Source: a virus. Taken from it: DNA of 48,036 nt. Below are positions 2,306 to 46,446 of this stretch, one piece after another. The position numbers and the translations under genes are program-made. How positions within the stretch are numbered: position 1 is the first letter of the stretch; each line of letters begins with the position of its first letter. A model generated the notes under the pieces. The model saw only the letters and a list, made by a program, of their open reading frames with translations. It was not told where the DNA came from and searched no databases. Location: the IMG/VR virus record IMGVR_UViG_3300018082_000013, positions 1-48,036 of that record, one strand, 5' to 3'.

Positions 2306-2320
2306 AAAAGGCGAAGGCTC

Positions 2321-2339: not shown

Positions 2340-2354
2340 GGGAGGGACAACGCC

Positions 2355-3566
2355 ATGCAAGTCTTCGCTGAGCAGGGACGCGCACCGATCAAATCCTGGA
2401 CGGATGGGGTAGAGTTGGACCCTAACGCGCTCGGGCAGCTTCGCAATACGGCCAGCCTACCGTTCATTTTCAAGCACGTAGCCGTTATGCCCGACGTGCA
2501 CCTGGGTATCGGTGCCACGGTGGGCAGTGTCATACCCACAAAGGGTGCGATCATACCCGCTGCGGTGGGTGTGGACATTGGCTGCGGTATGATCGCGGCC
2601 CGGACCCCACTGACGGCGAGCGACCTACCCGACAGCCTCGCGGCACTTCGGACCAACATCGAATGGGCGGTGCCGCACGGGCAGAACCAATACAAGCACG
2701 CGGTGGCCCCGATTGGCGAGCAGAACGCAATCATGGATGCGTACAAGATCATCTATGACAGACACAAGGGCTTGCCGAATCCGGGGACCGATTGGGCCGG
2801 GAAGATCGTGCGGCAACTAGGGACACTCGGCGGCGGAAACCACTTCATCGAAGTGTGCCTCGACGAAGAGCAGCGTGTGTGGGTGATGTTGCACTCGGGC
2901 TCGCGCGGTATCGGCAACAAGATCGGCAGCTACTTCATTGAGCTAGCCCGCAAAGACATGCGACTGCATTTCATCAACCTGCCCGACCGCGACCTAGCGT
3001 ACCTGAGCGAGGGCACGCAGTATTTCCTCGACTACTGGAACGCGGTGAAGTGGGCGCAGAACTACGCGCTCGTGAACCGTCGCATCATGCTCGAACGTAC
3101 GCTGGATCAGGTGCAGCGGGCACTGTGGAAGACGTGGGAGACGGAGCCGATGCCGGTAGAGATCGCGGCTAACTGTCACCACAACTACGTGGAGCGCGAG
3201 AACCACTTTGGCGAGAACATCCTCGTCACGCGCAAGGGTGCGGTACGCGCCCGCCTGGGTGACATGGGCATCATTCCCGGTAGCATGGGCGTGCGTTCGT
3301 ACATCGTGCGCGGCCTGGGTAACGCCGAGTCGTTTCAGTCCTGCTCGCACGGAGCGGGACGCCGTATGTCGAGAACCGCCGCACGGAACACATTCAGCGT
3401 CGAAGATCACGTGCAGGCGACGGCCGGCGTCGAATGCCGTAAGGACGTGGGTGTGATCGACGAAACGCCGGGGGCCTACAAGGACATCGAAGCGGTCATG
3501 GCAGCGCAGACGGACCTGGTCGAGATCGTGCACACGCTCAAAGGTGTGCTGTGTGTGAAGGGTTGA
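2355..3566 (+). CDS. rtcB: RtcB RNA ligase (3'-phosphate/2',3'-cyclic phosphate to 5'-OH)
   Basis: 403 residues, essentially the length of E. coli RtcB. Recognisable blocks: MPDVHLG, then VGVDIGCGM with Mn ligands at D74 and C77 (equivalent to D75 and C78 of E. coli RtcB), LGGGNHF, LHSGSRGIG, and SHGAGRRMSR, whose His is the guanylylation site in the family. RtcB uses GTP and Mn2+ to join RNA ends left by metal-independent ribonucleases such as anticodon nucleases. The start at 2355 is set by the element A ribosome-binding site. It heads an operon that contains a second, mechanistically different RNA ligase two genes on. Confidence 0.96.
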   Translation: MQVFAEQGRAPIKSWTDGVELDPNALGQLRNTASLPFIFKHVAVMPDVHLGIGATVGSVIPTKGAIIPAAVGVDIGCGMIAARTPLTASDLPDSLAALRTNIEWAVPHGQNQYKHAVAPIGEQNAIMDAYKIIYDRHKGLPNPGTDWAGKIVRQLGTLGGGNHFIEVCLDEEQRVWVMLHSGSRGIGNKIGSYFIELARKDMRLHFINLPDRDLAYLSEGTQYFLDYWNAVKWAQNYALVNRRIMLERTLDQVQRALWKTWETEPMPVEIAANCHHNYVERENHFGENILVTRKGAVRARLGDMGIIPGSMGVRSYIVRGLGNAESFQSCSHGAGRRMSRTAARNTFSVEDHVQATAGVECRKDVGVIDETPGAYKDIEAVMAAQTDLVEIVHTLKGVLCVKG

Positions 3567-3793
3567 TGCTCGGCTGGTATTTCGCGTGGATTGCGCTCAT
3601 GTCAGTGGTAGGCACGGACGTGATGGGGCCGTACCCGACGCAGGCCGTGTGCATCGCAGCGCGTGATGGCGCGAAGGACTTCGGTGGTGTGACGACGACG
3701 CAGTGCACGAACGACGCGCGGTTGTACGATGACATGCTGTTTTGGGAGTTGGAACTGGAAGAGATGATTGCTAACAGTGGAGGGCCGACATGA
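3566..3793 (+). CDS. Small protein with N-terminal hydrophobic segment
   Basis: 75 residues. Starts in the TGATG overlap with rtcB. Residues 1-15 (MLGWYFAWIALMSVV) are hydrophobic like a signal peptide or membrane anchor. Two Cys follow (AVCIAA, TTQC), and the C-terminus is acidic. It lies between two RNA ligase genes with coupled starts on both sides. No family recognised; periplasmic or membrane location is inferred from the N-terminus only. Confidence 0.7.
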   Translation: MLGWYFAWIALMSVVGTDVMGPYPTQAVCIAARDGAKDFGGVTTTQCTNDARLYDDMLFWELELEEMIANSGGPT

Positions 3794-4836
3794 GCGTAGA
3801 GATCAACGAATACACGTCCTGGCACAGCTATCCGGACTCGAACGCACTCGGGCACAAGTATCTGACCGAGCTATTCTTCGATGCCGTGACGGTCGAGGAA
3901 AAGGTGGATGGCTCACAGTTCTCGTTCGGCGTGTTCGGTGACTTGCCGAGCGATATGCGTTTCCGCTCAAAGGGCGCGCAGATTTTCGTCACCGATGATG
4001 GGCACTCGTCCGAGAAGATGTTCGATAAGGCGGTGCAGTCGGTCATCAAGCGGCAGTACCTTTTGCACGAGGGCTGGACCTACCGTGCCGAGTACCTGCC
4101 GAAGCCGAAGGCCGTGACGCTAACGTACGATCGGGTGCCGCGTGACCTGTTCGACAATACGGACGCGTACCTGATCGGTTACGACGTGGAGATTGCCGAC
4201 GAAGTGTTTCTTAGCCCGGACGAGAAGCGCGAAGAATTTGCGCGTATCGGCCTGGAGTGCGTGCCGTGCTTCATGAACGAAGAGACGATAACGGACATCG
4301 AAGCGATCAAGGCACTGCTCGCGGAGACGAGCATCCTGGGCGGGCAATTGATCGAGGGCGTGTGCATCAAGAACTATCACCGCTGTACGCCAGACAAGAA
4401 AATCCTGATCGGCAAGTACGTGTCCAAGACGTTCAAGGAATTGCACGGGCGGGATTGGGCAAAGGGAAACCCGAAGTCGGGAGACATCGTGCAGACGATC
4501 ATAGAAGACATCCGGACTCCGGCTCGGTGGGCGAAGGGGGTTCAGCACCTTCGCGAGGCGGGGAAGTTGACTGACAGCAACCAGGACATCGCGCTTCTGT
4601 TTCAGGAGATACCCGCTGACATCAAGAAGGAACTGGAAGGCAGGATCAAGGACGAGTTGTTCAAGTGGGCGTGGCCGAAGATCAGTCGAGGCGCGATGGC
4701 TGGTATGCCCGAGTGGTACAAGGAACTGCTCGCGGCGGGCCAGCCGATGCCAGAGGGCCACGAGCCAAAGGGACCGGATTATCAGCCGCAAGGTATGAAT
4801 CCATATGACCACGCCGAAGAGGGAGGGCAAAGCTGA
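3790..4836 (+). CDS. ATP-dependent RNA ligase, Rnl2-like nucleotidyltransferase
   Basis: 348 residues with the covalent nucleotidyltransferase motifs in order: motif I EEKVDG with AMP-accepting Lys38, motif III region WTYRAEYL, IIIa-like AYLIGYDVEI, motif IV LIEGVCIKN, motif V KYVSKTFKE. This is the layout of the T4 Rnl2/RNA-editing ligase group, which seals 5'-phosphate to 3'-OH ends. The remaining ~120 residues form a helical C-terminal domain. Coupled to the gene before it (ATGA). With RtcB in the same operon the phage can seal both chemical types of broken RNA ends; no dedicated kinase-phosphatase gene is visible next to it. Confidence 0.9.
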   Translation: MSVEINEYTSWHSYPDSNALGHKYLTELFFDAVTVEEKVDGSQFSFGVFGDLPSDMRFRSKGAQIFVTDDGHSSEKMFDKAVQSVIKRQYLLHEGWTYRAEYLPKPKAVTLTYDRVPRDLFDNTDAYLIGYDVEIADEVFLSPDEKREEFARIGLECVPCFMNEETITDIEAIKALLAETSILGGQLIEGVCIKNYHRCTPDKKILIGKYVSKTFKELHGRDWAKGNPKSGDIVQTIIEDIRTPARWAKGVQHLREAGKLTDSNQDIALLFQEIPADIKKELEGRIKDELFKWAWPKISRGAMAGMPEWYKELLAAGQPMPEGHEPKGPDYQPQGMNPYDHAEEGGQS

Positions 4837-11649: not shown

Positions 11650-11725
11650 AGGGCGGTACGTCAGCGGCCAGACTTCTGGTGTCGGAAACCAGAGGACGGA
11701 GGTTCGACTCCTCCCCGCCCTACCA
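11650..11725 (+). tRNA. tRNA-Pro (anticodon CGG)
   Basis: 76 nt including encoded CCA. Acceptor AGGGCGG pairs with CCGCCCT; anticodon stem CTGGT/ACCAG encloses the loop GTCGGAA (anticodon CGG, reading CCG); T-arm GGAGG-TTCGACT-CCTCC. The base 5' of U33 is G instead of the usual pyrimidine. Confidence 0.88.
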
Positions 11726-11762
11726 TTTCGGTGAGATGTTAAAACGAAGACAGGAGGCGCAT

Positions 11763-12185
11763 ATGGGTATGTATGACGATGGTGGCAGTTCAGTGATTCT
11801 CGAAACTGCGCCGGACCGTGACGAGCGCAGACGGCGTGAGTACGAGGCGTGGATCGTGGCGAGCCGCAAGCAGGCACGACGCGAGCGCATCTACAAGCGT
11901 GTGACCTGGGGCGTAGCTATACTGATCACGCTCGGGTTACTGTTCGGCCTGATGGTCTACGTGAATCAGGCTACTGCGGCACCACCGCCACAGGAGCGCG
12001 AGCTACGGCCCAAACCCCGCGCGAGGCAGGGTGTGCCGGTCGAGCAGTCCCCGCGAAGCCTGAAGGCCGCAGAGGCGTACTGCGAGAAGGCGGGCGGATT
12101 CTGGTGGGTGGACATGGACCCCGATGGCTTGCCTGGCATGAAGGTCGTCGGGTGCCTCTGGCCTGTGCCAAAGGGGATGAAGTGA
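11763..12185 (+). CDS. Single-pass membrane protein
   Basis: 140 residues from ATG with an ideal AGGAGG ribosome-binding site; a longer frame upstream would run through tRNA-Pro. Basic juxtamembrane region (RKQARRERIYKRV), then a transmembrane helix at ~48-68 (WGVAILITLGLLFGLMVYV). The C-terminal part outside contains two Cys in AYCEKAGGFWW and KVVGCLWP, plausibly a disulfide-stabilised exported domain. Confidence 0.75.
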   Translation: MGMYDDGGSSVILETAPDRDERRRREYEAWIVASRKQARRERIYKRVTWGVAILITLGLLFGLMVYVNQATAAPPPQERELRPKPRARQGVPVEQSPRSLKAAEAYCEKAGGFWWVDMDPDGLPGMKVVGCLWPVPKGMK

Positions 12186-12373
12186 TGCTGACGCCGGTCA
12201 TGGAAGGTGGCACGCGGTACAAGGCCGAGCGTGATCTCCGTAAGGCAACGCTGGTCGAAGTGGACAAGCGTATGGCGATGGCGAAGAGTTCGAGCGGCGT
12301 TGACAGCGTGGGGCACAGTCTGTATGCGCTGCTCCTGATCGCGCGGCTGCACGAGAGTGTCTATGATGACTGA
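12185..12373 (+). CDS. Small helical hypothetical protein
   Basis: 62 residues, TGATG-coupled. Basic-acidic helices (KAERDLRKATLVEVDKRMAMAK; SLYALLLIARLHESVYDD). Overlaps the next gene by 11 nt. No family recognised. Confidence 0.6.
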   Translation: MLTPVMEGGTRYKAERDLRKATLVEVDKRMAMAKSSSGVDSVGHSLYALLLIARLHESVYDD

Positions 12374-12632
12374 TACCATTGACCTGAACGGTGCAGCCCT
12401 GAAACAGGTTGCGCTGGCGTGGTACGAGTACGTGGTGAATGTCGCCGGCTATACCGAAGCCAAGTGGAAGGCAGCCGAGTCGCGCTGTCTGGCCGAGTAC
12501 CGTACGTTCACGCACAAGGAATGGAACGGTAAGCAGGCGAAGAACATCATTGTCGAGACACAGCGGTGGGTGCTGACCGACAACGGCATTGACCTTTACA
12601 TCGAGGGACGCAAAAATAGCCTGGCAGGCTAA
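12363..12632 (+). CDS. Hypothetical protein
   Basis: 89 residues; ATG 12363 or 12366. Aromatic-rich helical protein (ALAWYEYVVNVAGYTEAKWKA). Its last codons form the left arm of the strong hairpin at 12604-12645, so the 3' end of the coding region and the hairpin are one structure. Confidence 0.62.
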   Translation: MMTDTIDLNGAALKQVALAWYEYVVNVAGYTEAKWKAAESRCLAEYRTFTHKEWNGKQAKNIIVETQRWVLTDNGIDLYIEGRKNSLAG

Positions 12633-12645
12633 CTTTTGCGTCCCT
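12604..12645 (+). terminator. Composite hairpin at operon end
   Basis: Perfect 12-bp arms AGGGACGCAAAA / TTTTGCGTCCCT enclose a second hairpin AGCCT-GGC-AGGCT. It lies across the stop codon of the upstream gene and just before the tRNA region. No U-run follows the outer stem, so Rho-independent termination is not certain; RNase III processing or transcript protection are alternatives. Confidence 0.6.
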
Positions 12646-12666
12646 GAGATACGAGATAGTTCGAGC

Positions 12667-12734
12667 GGCGGCGTGGCCGAGAGGCATCCTCGCGGGATGG
12701 GCTGAGCCTGGCCCCCAAATCCTCGTCGCCGCCA
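12667..12734 (+). tRNA. tRNA-like sequence, degenerate or non-canonical
   Basis: The acceptor-like arms GGCGGCG (12667-12673) and CGCCGCC (12727-12733) pair perfectly and are followed by A. The 5' part TGGCCGAGAGGC matches the D-arm of tRNA-Ser/Leu types. The middle folds as CATC-ctcgcgg-GATG, but there is no recognisable T-arm. It may be a decayed or unusually structured tRNA, so I do not assign an isotype. Confidence 0.4.
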
Positions 12735-12743
12735 GTTTTCTTT

Positions 12744-12816
12744 GCGGCTATAGCTCAAGGAAGAGCACGTCCCTCGTAAGGACGGAGATGGTGCCTCGAA
12801 ACACCTGGCCGCGCCA
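12744..12816 (+). tRNA. tRNA-Thr (anticodon CGU)
   Basis: 73 nt with encoded CCA. Acceptor GCGGCTA/TGGCCGC, D-arm GCTC-aaggaa-GAGC, anticodon arm CGTCC-CTCGTAA-GGACG (anticodon CGT, reading ACG). The T-arm GGTG...CACC is one nucleotide short and lacks the usual TTC, so it is slightly aberrant. Confidence 0.78.
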
Positions 12817-13192
12817 GTTTGTAGAGGCCCGAGGAGAGACAAGTTCTTGGGAGCAATGGCAGGGCGTAATCTCCCCTGATCCCCTCACTGTTGAAAGGCG
12901 GTGCAACATGCGATGAAATAGGGAAAGGCCGAAAGGCTCCGGAAGAAAACTTTGTGAAATGTGGTTTTTATAAAGGTAATAGGCTGAACGAAGGGAGCCC
13001 TGCCCGGTGTTTGGGTTAGCGACAGGTGCGGGCGAGGCCGGGAAGATTCTGTGGTAAGCCTGGCGTCACGGCGGGGCATAAGAACGAGGCGACACCCAAG
13101 ACGCGCCTACTCCCTTCTATTGATCGAGAGGCCGAGCGGGAACGCTGCTCGGGGAATACGGTCAGGCGGTTTGACCCTGACCCCTCGTGACT
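12817..13192 (+). other. Non-coding spacer with stem-loops
   Basis: 376 nt between tRNA genes with no credible reading frame. Visible structure: CCGAGC/GCTCGG (13132-13152), GGTCAGG/CCTGACC (13160-13182), a short GCC-GAAA-GGC loop near 12930. Could encode a structured small RNA or be the spacer of a processed polycistronic tRNA transcript. I recognise no known RNA family. Confidence 0.45.
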
Positions 13193-13266
13193 GTGACGCT
13201 GGCCGAGTGGCAAGGCAGCGGGTTGTGGACCCGCGCAGCGGGGTTCGACTCCCCGGCGTCACCCCA
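13193..13266 (+). tRNA. tRNA-His (anticodon GUG)
   Basis: 74 nt with encoded CCA. Acceptor GTGACGC/GCGTCAC, anticodon arm GCGGG-TTGTGGA-CCCGC (anticodon GTG), T-arm CGGGG-TTCGACT-CCCCG, discriminator C as in bacterial tRNA-His. The base at -1 in the gene is T, not the G normally required opposite C73. Confidence 0.9.
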
Positions 13267-13270
13267 ATGT

Positions 13271-13343
13271 GCCGCCTTAGCTCAGTTGGCAGAGCATCGG
13301 TTTTGTAAACCGAGGGTCCGTGGTTCGATCCCACGAGGCGGCT
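13271..13343 (+). tRNA. tRNA-Thr (anticodon UGU)
   Basis: 73 nt; the discriminator T is followed by CCG, so a full CCA is not encoded. Acceptor GCCGCCT/AGGCGGC, D-arm AGCTCAGTTGGCAGAGC, anticodon arm TCGGT-TTTGTAA-ACCGA (anticodon TGT, reading ACA), T-arm CGTGG-TTCGATC-CCACG. Begins 4 nt after tRNA-His. Confidence 0.92.
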
Positions 13344-13558
13344 CCGTGCGCACGCCCTGCGAGCCGACCGGCAGGGGGAAGGAAGAGTCAGCGGGGAACT
13401 TGGTGCAAGCAGGGGAAACGCTGGCGAGGTTGGCGCGCTTCACGTCGGACTGCGACCGACGCTAAGACGACTATTTCGCGGTGGTACCCGTGTGAGCACG
13501 GCGCAACGCTGTGTGTCTCGAAGCTACGTGGACCGGGCTGGTCGGTCCCCTACCTCAC
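13344..13558 (+). other. Structured non-coding spacer
   Basis: 215 nt without a supported gene. Three strong stem-loops: CGTCGG-actgcga-CCGACG (13443-13461), CCGTG-tgag-CACGG (13488-13501) and GGACCG-ggctggt-CGGTCC (13530-13548). Two have 7-nt loops like tRNA arms, but no acceptor stem is evident. Candidate small RNA or processing spacer. Confidence 0.45.
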
Positions 13559-13632
13559 TCCGGTGTCAGCCAATGGTAGGCTAACGGACTGTTAATCCGT
13601 CAATCGTGGTTCGAGTCCACGCACCGGAGCCA
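13559..13632 (+). tRNA. tRNA-Asn (anticodon GUU)
   Basis: 74 nt with encoded CCA. Acceptor TCCGGTG/CACCGGA, anticodon arm ACGGA-CTGTTAA-TCCGT (anticodon GTT), T-arm CGTGG-TTCGAGT-CCACG, discriminator G. Last tRNA of the cluster; element A copy 4 starts 14 nt later. Confidence 0.92.
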
Positions 13633-36062: not shown

Positions 36063-37403
36063 ATGCAAACAGCAGTCGGCAGTTTTGCGATTGGGGTAGG
36101 AGGCGTTGGCACAACCGTCACGGTTAGTGGTCTGCCATTTCAACCCAAGGCTGTCATCTTCTCGTGGTCTGGCCGCACGGCGGTAGGCCAGGCCGAGGCG
36201 GATCACAAGATGGGCGCGGGCTTCATGGTGAACGCCACCGAGCGAGGCGGCTCGGCGACGGCCAGCATCAACGGGTTCGACATCACAGGCGCCAAGAATC
36301 GCTCGTTCTCCGACGCGTGTATCAAGATCATCGAGGCGTTCACTAACACAGTCGAAGGCGCAGCCGATTTCGACGCGTTCCTGTCTGATGGTTTCCGCGT
36401 CATAATCGACGATCAGTTCCCCGTGAGTTTCCTGATTAACTACATCGCGATCGGCGGCGCCGACCTGACGAACGTCAAGGCAATCACGATAACGCCTCCG
36501 GACGTTGACGGCGATCAGGACACGACGACCGTTGGATTCAAGCCCGACTGCGCGATGTTTTTCGGAGGGGCGGAAGTGACGACCAGTGGAAGCGGCTTGG
36601 GTTTTGGCGTGGCTGCACAGGACCCACCCGTGAACGCCGTCTTGGTGGGCAACGCGCGTGACGGTTTCACGACGACGGAGACGAAGTCTTACTGCCGGTT
36701 GGGCGACGAGTGCACAGCGGGGCGCCCAAACCCGGCAACGTTTGACATGCTGCGTCGGGGCAAGGTGACGAGTTGGCTGAGCAACGGCTTCCGCATGGCC
36801 TGGCTGGACACGTCTGTTCTTCAGCCAAATATTCAAGTTCTCTGCCTGAAGGGCGGCACGTACGCGGTCGGCGACCTGCTGACGCGGACGGACGGGACGC
36901 CGTTCAGCGAGATGGGCCTGCCGTTCGAGCCGCGAGGGCTGATCTTCGCGTCGCACAACAAGGCGCAGAGCGCGGCTGATACCGCTCAGGCTCTCGACGA
37001 GCGGTCCATTGGATTCGTTGCAAGTGCCACGCAGAGAAACTACGTCGGCGTACTTGACAAGGATGCGATTCAGGTTGACCCAGGCCCCGGGGTGACCGAG
37101 GTTGGTGTAGCACATAATACAAACGAGTGTTATGTCAATCAGAGCACCGCCGCGACCATCATCATCGAAGGATTGATGGATCTAACGTCGATGAACGCCG
37201 ATGGTTTCACAGTCGTTATGAACGATCCGGACCCGGTGTCGTCCTTTGTGTGGTATCTTGCGATGGGTGACGGAGTTGTGGACGTAGGGGGGGGGGTTTC
37301 ATCCAAACCAAAACAAAAACCGTCATCAGGTGCTTTGTGGGCTGCTATTCGTGAGCAACTTCGCAGTGAACCAAAGAAGTATAAAAGACCTATGATTTTA
37401 TGA
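36063..37403 (+). CDS. Virion-region protein with duplicated FQPK modules
   Basis: 446 residues; ATG directly after the previous stop with AGTTATC-type weak context. Two beta modules start with VTVSGLPFQPKAVIFSW (~20) and MGLPFEPRGLIFASHNK (~290), homologous to the pair in the 32746 protein. Residues after ~410 (GGGVSSKPKQKPSSG and on) are Lys/Pro-rich and encoded by clearly more AT-rich DNA. A run of ten G at 37287-37296 lies exactly at that junction, so length slippage there would change the C-terminus. Confidence 0.72.
   Translation: MQTAVGSFAIGVGGVGTTVTVSGLPFQPKAVIFSWSGRTAVGQAEADHKMGAGFMVNATERGGSATASINGFDITGAKNRSFSDACIKIIEAFTNTVEGAADFDAFLSDGFRVIIDDQFPVSFLINYIAIGGADLTNVKAITITPPDVDGDQDTTTVGFKPDCAMFFGGAEVTTSGSGLGFGVAAQDPPVNAVLVGNARDGFTTTETKSYCRLGDECTAGRPNPATFDMLRRGKVTSWLSNGFRMAWLDTSVLQPNIQVLCLKGGTYAVGDLLTRTDGTPFSEMGLPFEPRGLIFASHNKAQSAADTAQALDERSIGFVASATQRNYVGVLDKDAIQVDPGPGVTEVGVAHNTNECYVNQSTAATIIIEGLMDLTSMNADGFTVVMNDPDPVSSFVWYLAMGDGVVDVGGGVSSKPKQKPSSGALWAAIREQLRSEPKKYKRPMIL
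37287..37296 (+). repeat. Poly-G tract (10 G) inside a coding region
   Basis: Ten consecutive G near the 3' end of the 36063 gene. Encodes Gly-Gly-Gly in the present frame; +1 or -1 slippage would change the last ~35 codons. Could be a contingency locus or an assembly-sensitive homopolymer. Confidence 0.75.
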
Positions 37404-38227
37404 TTCCAAGCACCTACTGCGTAAGTAAACGCCACAAAGTGCTTTGGGCGACCATGAACTTCCTGGCCGAGCGGGACAGGTGCGGCATCCGCACAAAGAA
37501 GTGGGATCGCCCTGTGATCAAGGAAACGGTGGACCGCCGCAAGCTGATCCTTGAACACAACGCAGCCGACGTGTTCGCGGACGTATTCGATCGCCAGCGG
37601 AACGCCGTGCTTGACGTGTACCCATCGAAGCGGCGCATGAGCGAGGCCCTGCAAGAGACGCGCGAAGCCTTAGAGCAGGCGTACTGGAAAGTGTACCTCG
37701 ACACCGCGTCAAGCTACGGTCCGTGGGCGGCTCGGCACCTGGACGCGACGATGAAGGCTCCCGATCCGTTCCGTGATCCGATGGTGAACTGGCTTCGTGG
37801 CAACGCAGCGAGTCGCGTGGCAGACATCAACAAGACGACACGTGATCGGTTGCAGGTTATCCTGGCCGAGGCGACCGAAGAGGGCGATAGCCTGCAAGAG
37901 ACTGCGAGCCGGATCGACGATCTGTTCCTCGACGAGATCATTCCCAACCGAAGCATGGTGATCGCGCGGACCGAAGTCGGTAATGCGGCTAACTTCGCGG
38001 CGCACGAAGCGGCACAGGCGACGGGCGTGCCGATGGAAAAGACCTGGAACACACTCGGCGATCCGTTCGTGCGCGATATTCACGCGGACGCAGACGGGCA
38101 GACAGTCGAGATCAATCAGGACTTCACCGTGGGTGGCGAGTTCCTGGGCTGGCCAGGAGACATCAGTAAGGGAGCGAGTGCTGGCAACGTCATAAACTGC
38201 CGGTGCTTCTTGACGTACGACGTATGA
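37400..38227 (+). CDS. Mu F-like head morphogenesis protein (minor capsid)
   Basis: 275 residues. C-terminal hallmark: ARTEVGNAANFAAHEAAQATG, then KTWNTLGDPFVRDIHADADGQ, GGEFLGWPGDISKG and NVINCRCFLTY, the Phage_Mu_F/SPP1 gp7-like pattern. N-terminal ~170 residues are helical. Such proteins bind the portal or sit inside the head and are often fused to effector domains; here the effectors are in the next genes. ATGA-coupled upstream and to the following giant gene. Confidence 0.92.
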   Translation: MIPSTYCVSKRHKVLWATMNFLAERDRCGIRTKKWDRPVIKETVDRRKLILEHNAADVFADVFDRQRNAVLDVYPSKRRMSEALQETREALEQAYWKVYLDTASSYGPWAARHLDATMKAPDPFRDPMVNWLRGNAASRVADINKTTRDRLQVILAEATEEGDSLQETASRIDDLFLDEIIPNRSMVIARTEVGNAANFAAHEAAQATGVPMEKTWNTLGDPFVRDIHADADGQTVEINQDFTVGGEFLGWPGDISKGASAGNVINCRCFLTYDV

Positions 38228-41200
38228 TCTACAATCGTACCCCGGACTACGTGATCAAGACCGCGCTCGACAAGAGCGACGGAATCATGGTGGCACTCAA
38301 GGTGCCCACCGACGCTGCCCGTCTGCTCGCGCTCGAAGGTGGACAGCCGCCAGAGGACTTGCACCTGACACTCGCTTACCTTGGCAAGCGTGACGAGTTC
38401 ACGCCTGAGCAATTGGGTACGCTACACGACATTGTCGGAGCCATAGCGCGCACAAGTCAGCCTGTCGAGACGCAAGTTCGCGGGTATGACGTGTTCCCCG
38501 ACACCGACGACGGTCCGTGCCTATACGCGACGGTGGACACGACGCAATCGCTCCTGGACCTGCAAGAGACGGTCGTCGAGGCTGTGTCGTCCTATGGCAT
38601 GCCGCCACAGGGCAAAGGACAAAGCAACGGGCGGTGGATTCCCCATATCACTCTGGCGTACCGGGAGAGTGCTTCCCCGCCTGACGTGCCGCCTGTATCT
38701 GACCTGACTTTCGATTGGCTTCGCGTCGCGCTAGGCAGCACCGAGGCACTGATGCGTCTGAAGAAGTTCGAGGGCGCCATTGCGGCGCAGCCGGAACTGA
38801 AGCGGCCAGAGGACACGAAGGAAGAGAACTTCCTGAAGGGCGCAACGACCACGAGCACCATGGACAGCGGCGGGCGCATCGCACCGGGCCAGGGCAGGTT
38901 CCGCCGCATCAAGGACAGCGGCGGGCTCACGGCACCCACGGACGGTGGTGAAGTTAACCCGTTACACTTGGTGCCGCGCCGGCCGAAGCGCACGGGTGAG
39001 GGCACCGAGGCGTACACGGCATCGAACGAGATATACACACCGACGCCCGGCCTCATGAAAACCATCACGAAGGTAGGCAAGGCGGTCGCGATCGACTTCG
39101 ATGGTACGATAACGCTCGACGAGAAGGGCACCGAGAATCCGAAGATGCGGCGGCTGGTAGACATGCTCCTAAGCAACGGGGTCCGTGTGGTGATCTTCAC
39201 CGCGCGCCCCGGCGCCGAAGTTCACGCGTGGCTGCGCGAGCATGCCTGGCCGTCGCTCGAAGTGACAGATCGCAAGTCACCTGATTTCGCTGTGTACCTG
39301 GACGATCGAGCCGTGGGTTTCTCCCCGGACAAGGTTGGACAAGGGCTTGCGCAGGAGTTGGCCGAATTCAAGACATGGTGGGAAAAGAGTGCGAGCGACA
39401 TGGGTGCACAGCCAGAGACGCGCGATCGTCTGGCGAAGCTGCCGGCCGTGGCGATCACGAACGCCGAAAATAACACCGCTGAATGGAACGAAGCCATGCA
39501 CCCGCGTACGGCTGCGGGTACCGCTGAGGGCGGTCAGTTTGCGGCTGCGGGCGGTGGCAATGCTGCTACACCGGCTGATGCGCCGAAGGGCGATGCCGAC
39601 CAGGAACACCGCGCACAGCGGGCGCGTGAGTGGAACAAGCAACATCCTGACGATCAGGTGCCGATACCTGGCGACAAGCCGAAGACTCCTACTGAAGATC
39701 AGGCAAGACAAGCGGCGCAGCATCAGTGGCGCGAGGGTAACCCCGAGCGAGCAGCCGCCGCTGATCGGTGGAACGCTGAGCATCCGGGTGAAGAGCCCGC
39801 GAAGCCGGGCGGCACGGCCAGGACTGACCGTACCGACGAAGCTGCGGCGTGGGTCTTGGCACATCAAGGAGTACCGGGAGCATTTGCTGACGATTGGGCG
39901 AAGCCCGCACAGGTAGGCGACACGTTGCCGGGCGGTGGACGTGTGCAGCCGGGCGACTTGGGCACAGAAGAGAACAAGCCACTGGCCCCTGGTTTGCCAA
40001 CCGATCAGTTGGGCAAGGAACCGCGCGTGGGGATGCCGGGCGGCGGTACGACGCCGACACCGGAGTCTGTGCCTGGCACCCCGCCGACGCCTGAGTCGTG
40101 GGGTGATCTGAACGCCGATCAGCAGGACAAAGCGCTCGTCGCCTGGAAGAATGCAGCGCGTGATGACTTCATGCAGATGGAACGAGAGGGTTGGGAGGAA
40201 GACGAATCCAACTTCGAGCACGTGCCGAAGGACTTGCAGGGCAATCCGGAGTGGAACGAACAAGCGCTCAAGGACATCAACAACGGGTTCTATCCGGGCG
40301 ATCCTGTCGAGGGTCTTGACGACCAGGGCGGCGGAACACCGGCCGCACATGCTGAGCAAGAGCGACGCATTGCTGAGTGGCGTGATAGCTTCGCGATTGA
40401 CGACTCGATCAAGGCAGGCGCGTTCTCTGTGGATACTGGTGCGGTGGGCGCACTCGAAGTCAATACCGACTTGCTTGTGTTCAAGGACAATCCGTACACC
40501 GAAGACTCGGGACAGCAGATGCTCCCCGGCATCGACCGTGAGATGATGTACAAAGAGTTCAACAAGCAGAAGTGGGCCACAGTCAAGTCTGATTTCGAGG
40601 AGAGGTATAAGGAAGCGTTCGACACGGAAGTCGAGAAGCGCGTTGACATGATCAAGGAGAATCCGCCCACGTTTGACGTGAACGAGCGGATGGGTGACTA
40701 TTGGGACGAGATGGACGACAAAGAGAAGTTCAAGCAGGCGCAGGAGCATCTGCCTAGTAGCGATCTGCGTGGTGGTGGTACAAGCAGTGAAGGTAGTCAG
40801 GGCGAGGGCGAAAAGGGAACAGTTGGACCAGACAAAGAATACGACACGAAAGAACAGAAAACAATTCAGAGTAAGAAACCAACAACTAAGAAAAATCTCG
40901 GTGGTGGTGTCAGCGAATCAAAGGTAGTCACAATGGCTGACGGTTCAAAGTACGTGTGGAAACCTTCTACTGGAGAGGCCAATGTCCGTGACGGTATCAA
41001 TGCTGGTGTACAGTACCAGCGAGAAGTTGCGGCTTACGATATCGGACGCATCGTCGGGATGAAAAACTTTATGCCAGTTGCGTCCATCTTCAAGTATGAA
41101 GGCAATTACGGTACAATGATGGAGATGATTCCGGACGCCGACAACGACGGTAAGAGCGGGGATGATGACTTCGCTGATAGTGCTTTGCGAGGTACATTCT

Positions 41201-41541
41201 TTGATTTCATTATCGGCAACACTGACCGCCACGGTGGAAACTGGATGTCCGACGACGATGGCAAATTGTGGTTGATTGATAACGGGTTGTCTTTCTCTGA
41301 AGACAAAGCCGAAACAGCACGTTTCGGTATGTGGAGTAAAGTCGATCACGGTGCAGGCGAAGATGATGAAATTCCCGAATCAATAAAGAAGCCGTGGAAG
41401 GGGAAATGGTCGAAGATCAAGGAAGCAATGGAGCGGCGCAAGATCAGTACAAAAGCAATGAGGTACGTCGAAGAGCGTTATAAAAAAGCCATAGAAGATG
41501 GCGTGACGTGGAAAGACTTGGGCGTGGAGGGGGCATTTTGA
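38224..41541 (+). CDS. Giant multidomain protein: 2H phosphoesterase, HAD phosphatase, kinase-like tip
   Basis: 1105 residues from ATG 38224. Residues ~20-185: LigT/2H phosphoesterase with HLTL (H47) and HITL (H141). Residues ~285-385: HAD phosphatase with DFDGT (D291, D293), FTARPG and YLDDRA. Residues ~425-445: HPRTAAGTAEGGQF linker seen in head-fused proteins. Middle: Pro/Gly-rich, then a ~130-residue module (RIAEWRDSF ... KFKQAQEHLP) shared with the next protein. Residues ~890-1050: kinase-like tip with SKYVWKPS, GNTDRHGGNWM (catalytic loop) and LWLIDNGLSF (metal Asp), resembling PI3/4-kinase or HipA-like enzymes. The tip is encoded by AT-richer DNA. Probably packaged in the head. Confidence 0.82.
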   Translation: MIYNRTPDYVIKTALDKSDGIMVALKVPTDAARLLALEGGQPPEDLHLTLAYLGKRDEFTPEQLGTLHDIVGAIARTSQPVETQVRGYDVFPDTDDGPCLYATVDTTQSLLDLQETVVEAVSSYGMPPQGKGQSNGRWIPHITLAYRESASPPDVPPVSDLTFDWLRVALGSTEALMRLKKFEGAIAAQPELKRPEDTKEENFLKGATTTSTMDSGGRIAPGQGRFRRIKDSGGLTAPTDGGEVNPLHLVPRRPKRTGEGTEAYTASNEIYTPTPGLMKTITKVGKAVAIDFDGTITLDEKGTENPKMRRLVDMLLSNGVRVVIFTARPGAEVHAWLREHAWPSLEVTDRKSPDFAVYLDDRAVGFSPDKVGQGLAQELAEFKTWWEKSASDMGAQPETRDRLAKLPAVAITNAENNTAEWNEAMHPRTAAGTAEGGQFAAAGGGNAATPADAPKGDADQEHRAQRAREWNKQHPDDQVPIPGDKPKTPTEDQARQAAQHQWREGNPERAAAADRWNAEHPGEEPAKPGGTARTDRTDEAAAWVLAHQGVPGAFADDWAKPAQVGDTLPGGGRVQPGDLGTEENKPLAPGLPTDQLGKEPRVGMPGGGTTPTPESVPGTPPTPESWGDLNADQQDKALVAWKNAARDDFMQMEREGWEEDESNFEHVPKDLQGNPEWNEQALKDINNGFYPGDPVEGLDDQGGGTPAAHAEQERRIAEWRDSFAIDDSIKAGAFSVDTGAVGALEVNTDLLVFKDNPYTEDSGQQMLPGIDREMMYKEFNKQKWATVKSDFEERYKEAFDTEVEKRVDMIKENPPTFDVNERMGDYWDEMDDKEKFKQAQEHLPSSDLRGGGTSSEGSQGEGEKGTVGPDKEYDTKEQKTIQSKKPTTKKNLGGGVSESKVVTMADGSKYVWKPSTGEANVRDGINAGVQYQREVAAYDIGRIVGMKNFMPVASIFKYEGNYGTMMEMIPDADNDGKSGDDDFADSALRGTFFDFIIGNTDRHGGNWMSDDDGKLWLIDNGLSFSEDKAETARFGMWSKVDHGAGEDDEIPESIKKPWKGKWSKIKEAMERRKISTKAMRYVEERYKKAIEDGVTWKDLGVEGAF

Positions 41542-41800
41542 AAGTTACCGTAATCGGCTACTCGGGCAACGATCACATTGTTATTGGTGAGCTACGTGTA
41601 CTCGGTGGCAAAATTGTCGTCGCGCCGAATCCTCACTACCGAAATCAAGATCGCGCCCGTAAAATACTAGAGTCGATTGCAACTGACCCTGTACGGTGGG
41701 CTGGACAAAAAATCGGTCCGGACAAAGTACAGGTGTTTATGAATCTGTTGCATACGCAGTATAGTGGCTCGTACTTGCGTGTTACTAAGCCGGAGATTGA
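40800..41800 (+). other. AT-richer segment covering kinase-like tip and next gene's N-terminus
   Basis: From about 40800 to 41800 the sequence shifts to visibly more A/T (for example GAACAGAAAACAATTCAG, AAGAAAAATCTCGG) against the GC-rich flanks. It begins just after the shared module of the first giant protein and ends near the GGEF linker of the second. Suggests a domain swap by recombination. Confidence 0.6.
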
Positions 41801-44024
41801 CAGCCTGAAGAAGTGGGATGAAGCTGACCATCCGCGCGTGGGCTCTGGCGAACACGGTGGCGAGTTCACGTCTGGTGGTGGCGGTGGAGCGGGAGCGGCT
41901 GACGACACGAAATCCTGGACGAAGGACAAGGCCCCGGCAGACCAGGAGCGCGCTGCGAAGTTGGAAACGGAGCGACAGACGGCGGTCGGCAACGTCGAGA
42001 AGCTGGTGTCAGGCGTAACCGGCTCCGACGAGAGTGGTCAGGCGTTGACGAGTCCGTCCCAAGTCAAGACGTGGGCGAACATGCCGCAAGAGTGGCAGGG
42101 GCACGCGGCGAACGGATTCATCAGTGACTACGTCAATGGCAACATGCCCGCCAGTGAAGAGTGGCAATCCAAACCCCACACGTGGGACCAGGTGCCGCAA
42201 GATTGGAAGGACAAGGGCAAAGCGGACTATCTGACCGGGTACGCTGTTGGTGATAGCCCTACGCCCGCTGCTCTTGCCGAGGGCGTGGCGAATTGGGAGA
42301 AGATGCCCGATCAGGAAAAGCTGGAATACTCACAGCAGATGTACAACCAAAATGCTGCAAAGGAACGGCAGAGACTCACTGACGAGGCGGGCAGCCTGTG
42401 GGGTGACATGGGCGACGAGGGTAAGCTAAACTTCGCGCAAACCGAGGCGAAGGACTTCCCTGAGTTAGCGGTCGAGGAAGATGACCCTGACTCCGACGAG
42501 CCGCCGAGTGAAATGTCTGTTGATGATTTCGGTGATTGGGACGGGCTTCCGAGCGACTGGCAGGAGAAGACAAAAGAGAAGTGGATGGAGGACTCCTACG
42601 CCGAGTTCGAGCAGAGCGAGAAGGAATCATTCGAGCCCGACCGCGACTACCACGAAGAGCGCGTCTCCGAGGACGAGGATGCGGTGCACGCCCTGATCAA
42701 GGAAATTCCCGAGGAAAACTACATCTACCCTGGCATGGGCGAGTACGAGACACCGGAGGATGCGGAGGAAGGTGGAGCCGAGGACAAACGCCGCGAGAAA
42801 GAGTGGCAGGAAAACTTCGACCTGAAGGCGTCGGTCGATGACGGCGCGTTCACCTGGGACAAAAATGGCGAACTGACTGTGGATACTGACAGGTTGGTCT
42901 TCCACAAAAATCCTCACGAGGATGACGCGCAGCAGATGATCCCTGGCGTTGATCGCGCGGAGTTGTCGAACGCGTACAAGAAAAGCCAGTGGGAAGGCGT
43001 TGCTCGGGACTACGAAAAAGAGTTCAAGGCGAAGTTCGAGAAGGCCGTCGAGAAGAGCATGGAGGAAGAGTCCGAGAACTACGAACCGGACAAATCCTCT
43101 GTCGAAGAGTACATGGAGCAGCAGTGGGATGACGGCTTTAGCGACAAGCAGAAGTTCAAGCACGCGCAGAACTACCTGTCTGACGAGACGGTCGAGAGTG
43201 ATCAAGAATCGACAGCAGGCAGTGGTGGACCAATCCGCATACCGAAAGCCTTCGAGTTGTTCAGCGGCGAAGACGAAAAGAACCCTGGCGACTACAAGAT
43301 GACCGGGCGCCTGGGTCGTGCGCTCACCATCGCCCGTGCCGAGCAGATTGCGAAAGAACGCGGCATCGAGGATTTTGGTGGTGTCAGTTCGATGGAGAGT
43401 TTGGGCAACACGCTGTGGGAGGGCTGGAAAGGTTCGTCCACAAACAGCCACGGTAAGTTGCTTCAGGTTGCGTCGGCGGACGAGTTGGGCGGCAATTTGC
43501 AACCGTGGCTCGCTGAGGAAGCAGACGCGATTCGCAAGAACAGAGGATACCCGGCCGCAAAGGCATACGTGCGCGGGCTGTGGGAAACTTCACAGTACCT
43601 CATGCACAAGGCGGGCATGAAGGAACTGGACATATACCGGGGCATCATGGTGGACGGCGACAAGTTGGCAGCAGAAAAAACCGAGCGCGTCGTGGTACAC
43701 GGCAACGATATGGAGCGTATTGCAGAAAAGCACTTCGACCAGAACGGAGCCGCGTCGTTCACAATGAAGCGCGACGTGGCAAACGGCTGGAACGGCATCG
43801 GGCACAACATGCCGCCGAACCCGAAGCGGGTCGTGCTTCGCGCTCGTGTCCCTTTAACGGCTGTGCTTGCGCTGCCCGCGTATGGCAAGAACTACCACGA
43901 GGAAAAGGAAGTCGTCGTGGTTGGCACCCCGTGGAAGAAGTGGGACGCCTGGAAGCACAAGGCCCCGACGATTGGGGAGACGGAATCAGACGTAGCGCTC
44001 AAATGGAGGACGGCTCGTGCTTGA
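41538..44024 (+). CDS. Giant protein with C-terminal ADP-ribosyltransferase-like tip
   Basis: 828 residues from TTG 41538, chosen because it overlaps the previous TGA and has GGAGGGGG upstream; GTG 41508 is possible. An N-terminal ~85-residue domain of unknown type, linker HPRVGSGEHGGEF, two Trp-containing repeats (MPQEWQGHAANGFISDYVNG; VPQDWKDKGKADYLTGYAVG), a strongly acidic region, and the shared module (REKEWQENF ... KFKHAQNYL). C-terminal tip: LDIYRGIMVDG (Arg), AASFTMKRDVANGW (Ser-x-Thr-like) and YHEEKEVVVVG (E-x-E), the R-S-E order of ADP-ribosyltransferases. Target unknown; likely delivered from the head. Confidence 0.8.
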   Translation: MKVTVIGYSGNDHIVIGELRVLGGKIVVAPNPHYRNQDRARKILESIATDPVRWAGQKIGPDKVQVFMNLLHTQYSGSYLRVTKPEIDSLKKWDEADHPRVGSGEHGGEFTSGGGGGAGAADDTKSWTKDKAPADQERAAKLETERQTAVGNVEKLVSGVTGSDESGQALTSPSQVKTWANMPQEWQGHAANGFISDYVNGNMPASEEWQSKPHTWDQVPQDWKDKGKADYLTGYAVGDSPTPAALAEGVANWEKMPDQEKLEYSQQMYNQNAAKERQRLTDEAGSLWGDMGDEGKLNFAQTEAKDFPELAVEEDDPDSDEPPSEMSVDDFGDWDGLPSDWQEKTKEKWMEDSYAEFEQSEKESFEPDRDYHEERVSEDEDAVHALIKEIPEENYIYPGMGEYETPEDAEEGGAEDKRREKEWQENFDLKASVDDGAFTWDKNGELTVDTDRLVFHKNPHEDDAQQMIPGVDRAELSNAYKKSQWEGVARDYEKEFKAKFEKAVEKSMEEESENYEPDKSSVEEYMEQQWDDGFSDKQKFKHAQNYLSDETVESDQESTAGSGGPIRIPKAFELFSGEDEKNPGDYKMTGRLGRALTIARAEQIAKERGIEDFGGVSSMESLGNTLWEGWKGSSTNSHGKLLQVASADELGGNLQPWLAEEADAIRKNRGYPAAKAYVRGLWETSQYLMHKAGMKELDIYRGIMVDGDKLAAEKTERVVVHGNDMERIAEKHFDQNGAASFTMKRDVANGWNGIGHNMPPNPKRVVLRARVPLTAVLALPAYGKNYHEEKEVVVVGTPWKKWDAWKHKAPTIGETESDVALKWRTARA

Positions 44025-46446
44025 GATAGAACTGGACAAACCTGGCGACCCTCACTGGCTGTCCAAGCCGAAGAAGCTGCGCAAGTTCGACCCGAGTCAG
44101 CAGCGTGACGAGGACGGCAAATGGTCGGAGACGGGTGCGGGAGGTGGCGCGACCACCGAACCGAAGGGCAGCGCAGGTCACGGATACGAGGCCCCGAAGG
44201 GGCAGGCTAGCTTACCGGCCGAAGCCAAGGACATCGCGGACGAATACGATTCCGCCCCCGAGATCGGACCAGGCGCAAAGGAAGCGTGGGCGAAGCTGTC
44301 GGCTGACATTGACCGGGACTTCGCCGAGATCACCAAGACGGTTGCAGTCGAGAAGGTCACAGGTCAGCCGTACTCGTCGATCGACGAGATGTTCGCCGAC
44401 ATCGACGCTGGCCGCTTCAAGGTGACGACCGACTACTCGCAGCATCCGCTGTGGTCGGAGGATCAGAACTGGAAGTTTCGTGTGGTGCATGACTACTACG
44501 GACACTACAAGACGGGCGACAAGAGCGTGGACTTCTCGCTGGAAGGCGAACGTAGCGCGTTCTTGAGCCAGGCGCAACGGTCAAGCGACCTGGACGCGCG
44601 TCGGGCGTTGCAGACCGAAGTATACGGGCAAGCATCCGCGTTCTACAAGAACGGTGCATTTGGCAAGCAGAAGGTGTATCTGCCGGGAGCGGACGTTGCG
44701 GAGCGGTGGACCGCGCCGGCAGCGCAGGACTTCATCACGGCGCGTGACCGGAACCCTCGGGGGGACTTCTTCTCGCACCTGGAGCCGGGCGACCTGAAAG
44801 GCTACAAGCTGATCATGAATGAGTCGCACTCGGCGGGAGCGGCCGTTGCGCCCGATGGCGACATTCAGAACGTGTTCCGCAACCCCAACTCGCCGAAGGG
44901 TGCCGGGACAGCCGCATTGCACGAGGCTGTACGGCAGGGCGGGCTGATGCTCGACGCGTACGAATACGAGACTCCGGGTCAGCCGGGCCTGCCAGACGTG
45001 TACCGCAAGGCGGGGTTCGTCGAGACGGGCCGCATGAAGTTCAACCCGGCGTACCGTCCAGCCTGGGGACCAGAGCGGCGGCCAGATGTTGTGTTCATGG
45101 CTTACGTGGGTGGCGATCAATCGAAGTCGCCGAAGTCAGACCACTACTACCAGCCGCACGAATGGGATCGTGCTAAGAAGGAATCCCTGGCCTCGGCCGA
45201 TGCGCCAGGCGAGAGCGAAATAGCACGGCAACTGCGTGAGCAGCGCTCCCGTCGCGCATATCAGGATGTGAACAGGCCGAAGCTGCCGCCAGAGGTAGAT
45301 CAGGCACTGAGAGGGCTCGGCAAGTCAGTGCTCTCGTCCAAGGACCGTGAGGACCTGAAAATCAAAACGAACAAAAAGAAGTGGGGTGGTCGGCCACATG
45401 TCTTCACTGCCGCCGAGTGGACGCACCCGAACGGACATCCGCGCTGCGTTCGTTGCGGCGACGAGGAACCGAGTGACGGGCTGTGTATGCCGGAGTTGCT
45501 GAAGTGGGCAACCATGCTCGATGTTGCCATGTCTGGCACTCATCAGGTGGATAGTGGTAAAATAAAAGAGAAGGGAACCTTCATGTCGAAGAGTTGGATC
45601 GCAGAGTTTCATGCCGATTGCATCACAAAGGGAGCCGCCTGCTCCGTGAAGTGGCCAGTGTGCCCCGAGAAGAAAGCTGCCGTCGAGAAGTACATCCGCG
45701 AAGAGGGTGGGAAGTTCAACGTCTACTCCGAGGACGGCAAGAAACTCGGCACGCATTCGACCCGAGCCGAGGCCGCCGCGCAGCTTCGCGCAATCGAGGC
45801 GAACAAGGACGCGACGCGCGGATATCCCGAGTTGGGTGTACCTCCGGCTCCAGTCGCGATGAAGGCATTGCAGGGTGCATGGAACGCGTACGCGAAGTCG
45901 GTCGGGATCGTGTTCAAATCTGAGGAAGTTCAAGCTGAGCCGGTCGAAAAGGGCGTGTACCGAGTCGCGGCTCCGGGCGGGAAGTGGGTATACTTCGCGG
46001 TCGAGGGTGACCAAGCGGGGCGGGTCGAGTATCAGCGGAAGAACGGTATGCTGGCCCCGGTGGTGAAGGCCGAGAAGCAGCGCTATACCCTCGGCGCCGT
46101 GTACGCGCCGGGTGAGACGGATTTTCATGGCGACACCATGACCGAAGTCGAATTGGAAAAGGCGGCGTGGGCGTTCGCACAGAAGGACGGGCTCACGGGC
46201 CGCGTCGGGCTCATGCACCAATCAGGCACGGAAAAAGCGGGCAAGGTAGTCGAGTCATACGTCTACCGTGGTCCGGTGTGGAAGTTCAAGGACACCTCGG
46301 GTGTGACTCAGACGATCACACCGGGCACGTGGATGCTCGGTGTCGTGTGGGAACCGGAGGGCTGGAATCAAATCGAACGTGGCAGCGTGCGGGGTTATTC
46401 ACTCCAAGGGGTTGCCCGCAAGTTCGCCAATGGGGAGGAAGTATAA
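44017..46446 (+). CDS. Giant effector fused in frame to XkdF-like protease
   Basis: 809 residues from GTG, overlapping the previous gene by 8 nt. N-terminal DPSQQRDEDGKWSETG linker as in other head-associated proteins. Residues ~135-220: domain with VVHDYYGHYKTG and EGERSAF, a possible zincin-like HD-x2-GH site. Residues ~260-365: GNAT-like (SPKGAGTAALHEAV, DVYRKAGFVETGRM). A zinc knuckle CVRCGDEEPSDGLC at ~480. Residue 523 onward is the XkdF-like protease, which can also start alone at 45583. Element B5 lies within the frame and reads SGKIKEK. Whether the full fusion is made, or later cleaved by its own protease, is unknown. Confidence 0.72.
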   Translation: MLEIELDKPGDPHWLSKPKKLRKFDPSQQRDEDGKWSETGAGGGATTEPKGSAGHGYEAPKGQASLPAEAKDIADEYDSAPEIGPGAKEAWAKLSADIDRDFAEITKTVAVEKVTGQPYSSIDEMFADIDAGRFKVTTDYSQHPLWSEDQNWKFRVVHDYYGHYKTGDKSVDFSLEGERSAFLSQAQRSSDLDARRALQTEVYGQASAFYKNGAFGKQKVYLPGADVAERWTAPAAQDFITARDRNPRGDFFSHLEPGDLKGYKLIMNESHSAGAAVAPDGDIQNVFRNPNSPKGAGTAALHEAVRQGGLMLDAYEYETPGQPGLPDVYRKAGFVETGRMKFNPAYRPAWGPERRPDVVFMAYVGGDQSKSPKSDHYYQPHEWDRAKKESLASADAPGESEIARQLREQRSRRAYQDVNRPKLPPEVDQALRGLGKSVLSSKDREDLKIKTNKKKWGGRPHVFTAAEWTHPNGHPRCVRCGDEEPSDGLCMPELLKWATMLDVAMSGTHQVDSGKIKEKGTFMSKSWIAEFHADCITKGAACSVKWPVCPEKKAAVEKYIREEGGKFNVYSEDGKKLGTHSTRAEAAAQLRAIEANKDATRGYPELGVPPAPVAMKALQGAWNAYAKSVGIVFKSEEVQAEPVEKGVYRVAAPGGKWVYFAVEGDQAGRVEYQRKNGMLAPVVKAEKQRYTLGAVYAPGETDFHGDTMTEVELEKAAWAFAQKDGLTGRVGLMHQSGTEKAGKVVESYVYRGPVWKFKDTSGVTQTITPGTWMLGVVWEPEGWNQIERGSVRGYSLQGVARKFANGEEV
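45554..45570 (+). promoter_or_regulatory. Element B copy 5 (intragenic, protease)
   Basis: GTGGTAAAATAAAAGAG, perfect copy, 13 nt before ATG 45583 and inside the 44017 reading frame. The motif carries TAA in two frames; the host ORF uses the only frame it leaves open. Confidence 0.82.
45583..46446 (+). CDS. XkdF-like prohead serine protease (nested, in frame)
   Basis: 287 residues from ATG 45583 with GAGAAGGGA upstream. N-terminal region (SWIAEFHADCITKG, EKYIREEGGKFNVYSEDGKK), then from ~170 the XkdF-like core: YTLGAVYAPGETDFHGDTMT, GRVGLMHQSG, VVESYVYRGP, GTWMLGVVWEPEGW and GSVRGYSLQG. In such proteases the His of the MHQ loop and the Ser of the GxS-type turn are catalytic. It matures head proteins during assembly. 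Its own element B makes independent expression likely. The C-terminal NGEEV resembles the shared tail only in its last residues. Confidence 0.85.
   Translation: MSKSWIAEFHADCITKGAACSVKWPVCPEKKAAVEKYIREEGGKFNVYSEDGKKLGTHSTRAEAAAQLRAIEANKDATRGYPELGVPPAPVAMKALQGAWNAYAKSVGIVFKSEEVQAEPVEKGVYRVAAPGGKWVYFAVEGDQAGRVEYQRKNGMLAPVVKAEKQRYTLGAVYAPGETDFHGDTMTEVELEKAAWAFAQKDGLTGRVGLMHQSGTEKAGKVVESYVYRGPVWKFKDTSGVTQTITPGTWMLGVVWEPEGWNQIERGSVRGYSLQGVARKFANGEEV

Follow-up and report, generated by a model that had tools for sequence, protein, structure and literature searches.

Two multidomain proteins among the head genes

The window analysed here, meaning the whole stretch of 48,036 nucleotides, is the virus record IMGVR_UViG_3300018082_000013, which carries terminase, portal and four tRNA genes and has relatives in IMG/VR; environmental DNA is the sole source for this phage. 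We describe two long open reading frames (ORFs) on its + strand, called kin (38203-41541, 1112 aa) and art (41508-44024, 838 aa). They sit between the gene of a MuF-like head protein of 275 aa (37400-38227, + strand; PF04233 E 3.2e-13, head-morphogenesis PHROGs) and an XkdF-type protease domain (46066-46425, Peptidase_S78_2 E 1.1e-20) in the + strand gene at 44017-46446, which is where a first-pass annotation of the sequence had put them. Each of these four genes overlaps the next, suggesting coupled translation. The same annotation had the two ORFs begin at 38224 and 41538: both ORFs are confirmed, and these starts (ATG at 38224; TTG at 41538, with GGAGGGGG before it) are plausible alternatives to the mechanical GTG starts at 38203 and 41508.

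Several disparate domains are combined in kin. A 2H (LigT-like) phosphoesterase domain (residues 23-184, 38269-38754; PF13563 E 6.9e-12, phrog_2659, both HxT motifs) is followed by a HAD-like hydrolase region (residues 279-396, 39037-39390; Hydrolase_3 E 0.0011, below cut-off, phrog_1238, DxDGT motif), a short linker, a module shared with art (residues 633-867, 40099-40803) and a kinase-type tip (40858-41538). In art a linker and repeated W-x-x-[MVG] motifs (residues 189-312, 42072-42443, read from the translation), which resemble motifs at both module ends, precede the module (residues 344-574, 42537-43229) and a tip of ADP-ribosyltransferase (ART) type (43230-44021). All lie on the + strand.

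Pairwise and profile searches agree on the shared module. The two copies have 83 identities in 241 colinear columns (34%; blastp with composition-based statistics, E 2e-27), so the homology claimed at first pass holds, while the length given there, about 130 residues, was too short: the module spans about 235 aa. A separate search gave E 9.4e-27 for the module and 4.3e-5 for the linker region. The module is acidic (net charge -29 in kin, -40 in art), and composition bias was therefore tested. If the likeness were only one of acidic, Trp-containing composition, the high bias scores (e.g. 50.6 for the art ORF) would be expected; further, among relatives, 3 of 300 shuffles equalled the score of L128 against the window module profile, and likewise for L169 (G007), and no signal came from L041, L111 or L119. 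Against this stand the composition-corrected E-value over 241 colinear columns and four other relatives, L167 (G036), L140, L171 (G011) and L172 (G052), whose scores none of 300 shuffles reached. In addition, when the window ORFs are searched with a profile that draws on the trunks of six other contigs and contains nothing from the window, the two module copies take the top two places (E 9.6e-8 and 2.1e-5; next ORF 0.074). We regard a purely compositional origin as extremely improbable, and common descent of the two copies as by far the likelier reading.

Outside this phage the module is seen only upstream of an ART tip, in seven contigs, four of them firmly. L170 (G031), which lies outside the models and is close to L169, matches an eight-sequence trunk profile at E 1.9e-58; all ten ORFs matched by that profile are ART ORFs or their fragments, and none is a kinase ORF. 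The proposal of a conserved trunk with variable tips is thus borne out within this phage, where the trunk fronts both a kinase and an ART, but not across phages: aligning the module over relatives and tabulating their tips gave ART alone, and it is the short linker that pairs with many tips.

Other searches for the module found little. It has no Pfam match above cut-off. Tool-chosen patterns run against viral contigs returned only two further IMG/VR records with identical kin and art, module copies included: IMGVR_UViG_3300018079_000001 (101,821 b) and IMGVR_UViG_3300018063_000028 (40,447 b). A hand-made QQM-PG-DR DNA pattern added two DNA-polymerase contigs, which it matched by chance, two isolate phage records at E 3 are at chance level, and two narrow patterns found no relative in GTDB genomes. 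Such misses do not mean absence, since the linker afterwards led to divergent relatives of the module. Iterating a module profile ended with a single contig, and that profile was set aside.

The tip of kin, called kinase-like at first pass, matches Pfam PI3_PI4_kinase (PF00454) at E 8.1e-10, above cut-off, and has the catalytic residues K920, D1008, H1010, N1013 and D1026. In a family alignment of 12 sequences (A4: the window and 11 regions, of which L141 covers the N-terminal half only) K41 is invariant and D129, H131, N134 and D147 are nearly so; the best relative among the linker loci has E 7.7e-29. Profile searches of the PDB with the tip and its relatives hit 4kqa (Protein H03A11.1, which we take to be a Fam20 kinase) at 1.4e-7, PI4K type 2-alpha at 4.5e-6 and Fam20C at 1.3e-4. 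By these matches the tip is a kinase of the PI3/4-kinase / HipA / Fam20 type, with phosphotransfer as its predicted activity. Relatives of this tip also occur as gp16 of HRTV-2 (L014), among head and tail genes, and in Myxococcus phage Mx1 (L013), adjoining a large NUDIX protein; in L114 two consecutive ORFs have kinase tips, the second one behind a linker.

The tip of art has no match in Pfam, PHROGs or NCBIfam, and no significant PDB match by sequence. Its ART-like character, also proposed at first pass, is supported by a family alignment and a predicted fold. Among 11 aligned sequences (the window and 10 regions from linker loci; best relative of the window tip E 2.3e-47) R137, E225 and E227 are invariant and S176 is nearly invariant, giving an R-S-ExE triad that in art consists of R711, S750, E799 and E801. 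Scanned singly, the 11 sequences gave one Pfam DRAT match (E 0.0053), one DNA_ligase_A_M match (0.022) and none for the window. AlphaFold2 run on the alignment reached pLDDT 80.4 and pTM 0.81, compared with pLDDT 34.9 from the single sequence. Two Vis ART structures head the Foldseek list against the PDB (E 1.5e-3 and 2.0e-3, TM at most 0.40), and when Foldseek matches were realigned with VIA-align, 17 of the top 20 rows were ARTs (by title or known identity) and 3 were Rhs toxin domains. The best match among predicted viral structures is a 1390-aa phage head morphogenesis domain-containing protein (E 4.8e-10). The modelled tip resembles the ART superfamily, R-S-E type, and ADP-ribosyl transfer is predicted. 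One relative, a 2912-aa ORF on the - strand (L175, G010:C1:40000-56000), has seven tandem ART domains and a zincin-like HELAH stretch.

A short linker and the enzymes behind it

As first noted from the GGQF and GGEF stretches, kin and art share a linker: WNEAMHPRTAAGTAEGGQF at kin residues 428-446 (39484-39540, + strand) and WDEADHPRVGSGEHGGEF at art residues 103-120 (41814-41867, + strand). The common part, W[DN]xxxHPR...GGxF, is about 14 residues long. A degenerate third copy, FDPSQQRDEDGKW, can be read by eye at the start of the next protein, that of the gene at 44017-46446 (44086-44124, + strand). The same joint is found in a haloarchaeal virus: gp13 of HHTV-1, reached through the kinase tip (E 0.05), carries SWNPALHPRGPDGKF. 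Like the window, HHTV-1 combines linker and kinase match with a gpF-like gene, here two genes downstream; unlike the window, the HHTV-1 record searched gave no ART or module. A zincin-like HEMAH motif can also be read in gp13.

A degenerate DNA pattern with fixed W, D, H, P, R, G and F occurs in at least 120 stretches of viral contigs, against 7 for the backwards pattern, a count rather than a random-contig control. The 120 listed loci hold 141 matches: 139 are open in frame and 138 were kept, 125 of them unique, in 113 ORFs. Conservation extends to positions that the pattern leaves open: position 3 is E in 72% or P in 20%, position 4 is S in 48%, and position 13 is K, R or Q in 88%, followed by a Gly-rich tail. 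Of the 97 ORFs whose 5' end is complete, 40 have their first joint at most 60 residues from the start.

Some ORFs repeat the linker, one of them with five exact copies and one variant. Eight ORFs contain at least two exact copies (19 pairs), and in these 64 of 114 same-residue codons differ, while the free linker residues agree in 61% within ORFs, compared with 28% between ORFs. The 40 residues starting at +21 after the joint are only 8% identical. Recent copying of the linker DNA was rejected on account of these codon differences and the dissimilar flanks. The differing codons together with the agreeing free residues indicate that it is the peptide, rather than its DNA, that seems to be conserved.

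A search of isolates with one linker gives 28 records at E <= 10, of which seven have E <= 0.02: a Helicobacter prophage, four Pseudomonas syringae phages and two Xanthomonas phages. The remaining 21 (E 8-10) were treated as chance. In the three isolates inspected the linker gene stands beside terminase and head genes and is annotated as HI1409 family, hypothetical protein or portal protein; in Xanthomonas phage PhiXhv-5 the linker lies within the portal-annotated gene. No linker match was found in 72,556 plasmid records, and a near-mode search with one linker stretch returned none.

The surroundings of the linker were studied in 50 contigs, the longest among 80 listed linker loci minus L098, where a stop breaks the motif, and L080, which is on the same contig as L042 (L108-L147 were left out of these tests). 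Six pairs look like near-duplicates by their linkers (G011/G025, G014/G040, G015/G017, G012/G021, G023/G037 and G008/G030), so the contig counts overstate independence. A MuF match at E <= 0.001 is present in 33 of the 50 (24 above cut-off), and 32 of these 33 have a linker no more than 6 kb away from it (median 2.1 kb); the nearest pair is on the same strand in all 33. When positions were rotated within contigs, 20,000 trials gave a mean of 11.2 and a maximum of 21 instead of the 32 observed. In G024, G033 and G045, 46-109 bp separate a linker from the MuF domain, both on one strand, and in G036 a single ORF of 1586 aa contains a MuF match (E 2.6e-7, below cut-off), linker, module and ART. 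The portal family PF04860 is found in 14 of the 50 contigs (10 above cut-off). The MuF gene of the window itself, used as query, found one remote relative, L012, which has neither module nor linker.

We scanned 121 segments of at least 60 aa downstream of the linker for protein families. At E <= 0.001, and counting the best 25 of 28 Pfam families, ADPrib_exo_Tox was found in 7, LPD3 in 6, Zeta toxin, PBECR1 and NUDIX in 3 each, and PI3_PI4_kinase, ART and ParB_N in 2 each; RelA_SpoT, HicA, S-AdoMet lyase, ART-PolyVal, 2_5_RNA_ligase2, HipA_C and Peptidase_S78_2 occur once. At most 50 of the 121 segments have any Pfam match. From the best 25 of 115 PHROGs families come Alt-like ART (4), minor head protein (4) and head maturation protease (5). 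Judged by family matches, what follows the linker consists largely of domains already known from conflict systems and polyvalent proteins.

The two tips of the window also recur together. Of the 50 contigs, 7 are matched by the ART profile, 10 by the kinase profile and 6 by both (G007, G011, G025, G031, G036 and G052; also L140). This co-occurrence has a Fisher p of 8.5e-5, or 1.7e-3 with G011=G025 and G007=G031 collapsed, and is partly circular because some rows of both profiles come from these contigs. The gap between ART and kinase is 479-483 bp in five contigs and 2621 bp in G052, a closeness equalled by 5 of 100,000 random placements. In seven relatives the ART comes before the kinase, and five of them (G007, G011, G025, G031 and L140) have another ART behind the kinase; the window has the opposite order, kinase then ART. 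Such a repeated neighbourhood suggests that both enzymes act on one host process.

Candidate virion-borne effectors and the alternatives

The location of kin and art in the head gene cluster, the two real enzyme families at their tips and the MuF-linker-module-ART polypeptide of G036 fit the idea, raised at first pass, that they are polyvalent proteins. We favour, with moderate confidence, the reading that both are head-cluster effectors of this kind, which would be carried in the virion, injected, and modify host proteins early. From gene content and context they are probably virion-borne. Overlapping late genes between MuF and protease would yield multidomain proteins in which a WDxxxHPRxxxGxF joint, often with a Gly-rich tail, separates a leader or other domains from what follows, and serves at the least as a hinge across which domains can be swapped. 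The acidic trunk, elsewhere ahead of an ART, also fronts the kinase tip in this phage. The proteins might be built into the procapsid near MuF and portal and enter the cell with the DNA, after which host proteins would be ADP-ribosylated and phosphorylated at an early stage of infection, much as virion-borne Alt of T4 acts.

Several observations weigh against this reading. MuF is not matched in 17 of the 50 linker contigs, in G019 the nearest linker is 15.9 kb from MuF, and in G039 some 30 kb separate the kinase match from the linker. Only 9 of the 50 have the XkdF-type protease PF14550, so a tie to that family is unsupported and the joint as an XkdF-type protease site was rejected (no other protease family was searched). 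For the ART model, Foldseek gave no PDB match at E <= 0.001, and the best VIA-align result (Z 6.1, rmsd 5.0, 172 aligned) is middling on the tool's own scale, which grades any Z under 8 so. Further, SP15_258 (L178) of the cultured Bacillus phage SP-15, an ART relative at E 4e-18, has no annotated head gene in the 14.5 kb shown; its neighbours are mostly hypothetical. This last case is what one would expect if the enzymes were made late and acted, unpackaged, in the producing cell, for host shut-off, lysis timing or exclusion of other phages, their head location reflecting late expression only. Yet the fusion of MuF, linker, module and ART in one G036 ORF, the linkers 46-109 bp from MuF domains and the linker inside the portal-annotated gene of PhiXhv-5 speak for a closer connection to the head, and we consider late action unlikely. 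Trunk and linker could instead be structural or scaffold-like head parts, with enzyme tips that are minor or act at assembly time. Such a role would suit an acidic trunk in a head context; it does not account for catalytic residues that are conserved in both tip families across divergent phages, nor for the seven ART copies of the G010 protein, which all retain YRG, ASSW and ExE, and we think it quite improbable.

The first-pass annotation had also called the layout polymorphic-toxin-like. Under this explanation the proteins would be MuF-type toxins, phage-borne and directed at competing bacteria, with immunity proteins and exchangeable tips. Toxin families are indeed found among the linker tips (zeta, PBECR1, RelA_SpoT, HicA, ADPrib_exo_Tox), and passages of PMC5576092 describe MuF toxins with C-terminal ART domains. 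However, the same passages report a small ORF after 89.4% of MuF toxin genes, while the overlapping genes of the window leave no room for small immunity ORFs between them and none is present (distant immunity genes were not sought), which weakens the comparison. MuF is moreover a separate ORF in the window, and the tip of the trunk does not vary outside this phage. We therefore give the toxin explanation very little credence; with no immunity gene evident, polyvalent-type, probably virion-borne effectors are preferred to classical polymorphic toxins.

As for the joint, it may be no more than a hinge, or it may serve as an address or as the place where the protein is cut. The recurrence of the same linker before many enzyme types near capsid genes suggests, as far as sequences go, a modular kit of particle-carried enzymes. 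A more far-reaching proposal, which we put forward tentatively as a possibility, makes the joint a portable signal for virion cargo: effectors would dock through it to the procapsid on its MuF/portal side, or a maturation protease would cut it. Bacterial and archaeal tailed viruses would then share a cassette system, with the ART-kinase pair as one recurrent payload and the shared trunk as a local duplication, and any enzyme behind the joint would be loaded and released into the next host. The motif of about 14 residues offers a sequence handle for probable virion-borne effectors, including ones with no family model such as this ART. It makes testable how phage effectors are addressed to the capsid, beyond the case of T4; if the joint serves to address proteins or to have them cleaved, sequence would allow the internal cargo of many phages to be predicted.

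Known systems and neighbouring features

Polyvalent proteins of phages and conjugative elements have been described by Iyer et al. 2017 (PMC5512222). In the parts of that paper drawn on here they are, like kin and art, large, with disparate enzyme domains in a virion-gene context, and 2H, ART and acetyltransferase domains as well as fusions to MuF and portal are reported. The differences are that conjugative elements are included there, whereas the linker was not found in plasmids, and that the kinase type described is one without C-terminal subdomain, mainly from Verrucomicrobia-Chlamydia and Bacteroidetes phages, whereas the kin tip matches PI3/4-kinases. Packaged ARTs of the T4 Alt kind are, like art, encoded among head genes, and excerpts of PMC9503650 place about 44% of phage ARTs in contexts suggesting packaging. 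The window ART, in contrast, matched no Alt family in PHROGs and could be identified solely from our family alignment and the predicted fold, its packaging being a prediction. For T4 Alt the comparison draws on PMC9503650 and PMC5512222, and for the T7 kinase on PMC5512222. MuF polymorphic toxins, in the sections of PMC5576092 (Jamet et al. 2017) used, share with the window a MuF adjoining enzymatic C-terminal domains, including ARTs; they differ from it in that the window MuF is a separate ORF with no immunity-type ORF after it, the single ORF being found in the relative G036.

Polyvalent proteins, packaged ARTs and MuF toxins are thus already published. The open-access text that was searched, figures and supplements excluded, yielded no description of the linker, and the word 'linker' is absent from the main text of PMC5512222 and PMC5576092. 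Neither did open-access text yield a phosphatidylinositol kinase in phage capsid or virion literature; the portions of PMC8651126 (archaeal tailed viruses) consulted mention none.

The position of the 2H domain varies: the window has it in the kinase protein, G016 in the protease protein and Streptomyces phage Mischief19 in a MuF-like/protease fusion, indicating that domains shuffle among head proteins. The latter, gp12, is annotated as a protease and MuF-like fusion and resembles kin in its 2H match; unlike kin, it has no linker by the pattern used.

In the protein encoded at 44017-46446 (809 aa), a phrog_3170 domain of unknown function (44215-44679, + strand) and an acetyltransferase-like region (44797-45105, + strand; phrog_2563, the likeness being our reading) precede the XkdF-type protease within one polypeptide. 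Elsewhere in the window, an RtcB-like tRNA splicing ligase, an RNA ligase and the four tRNA genes, at 2199-4836 and 11650-13632, form a possible tRNA repair set.

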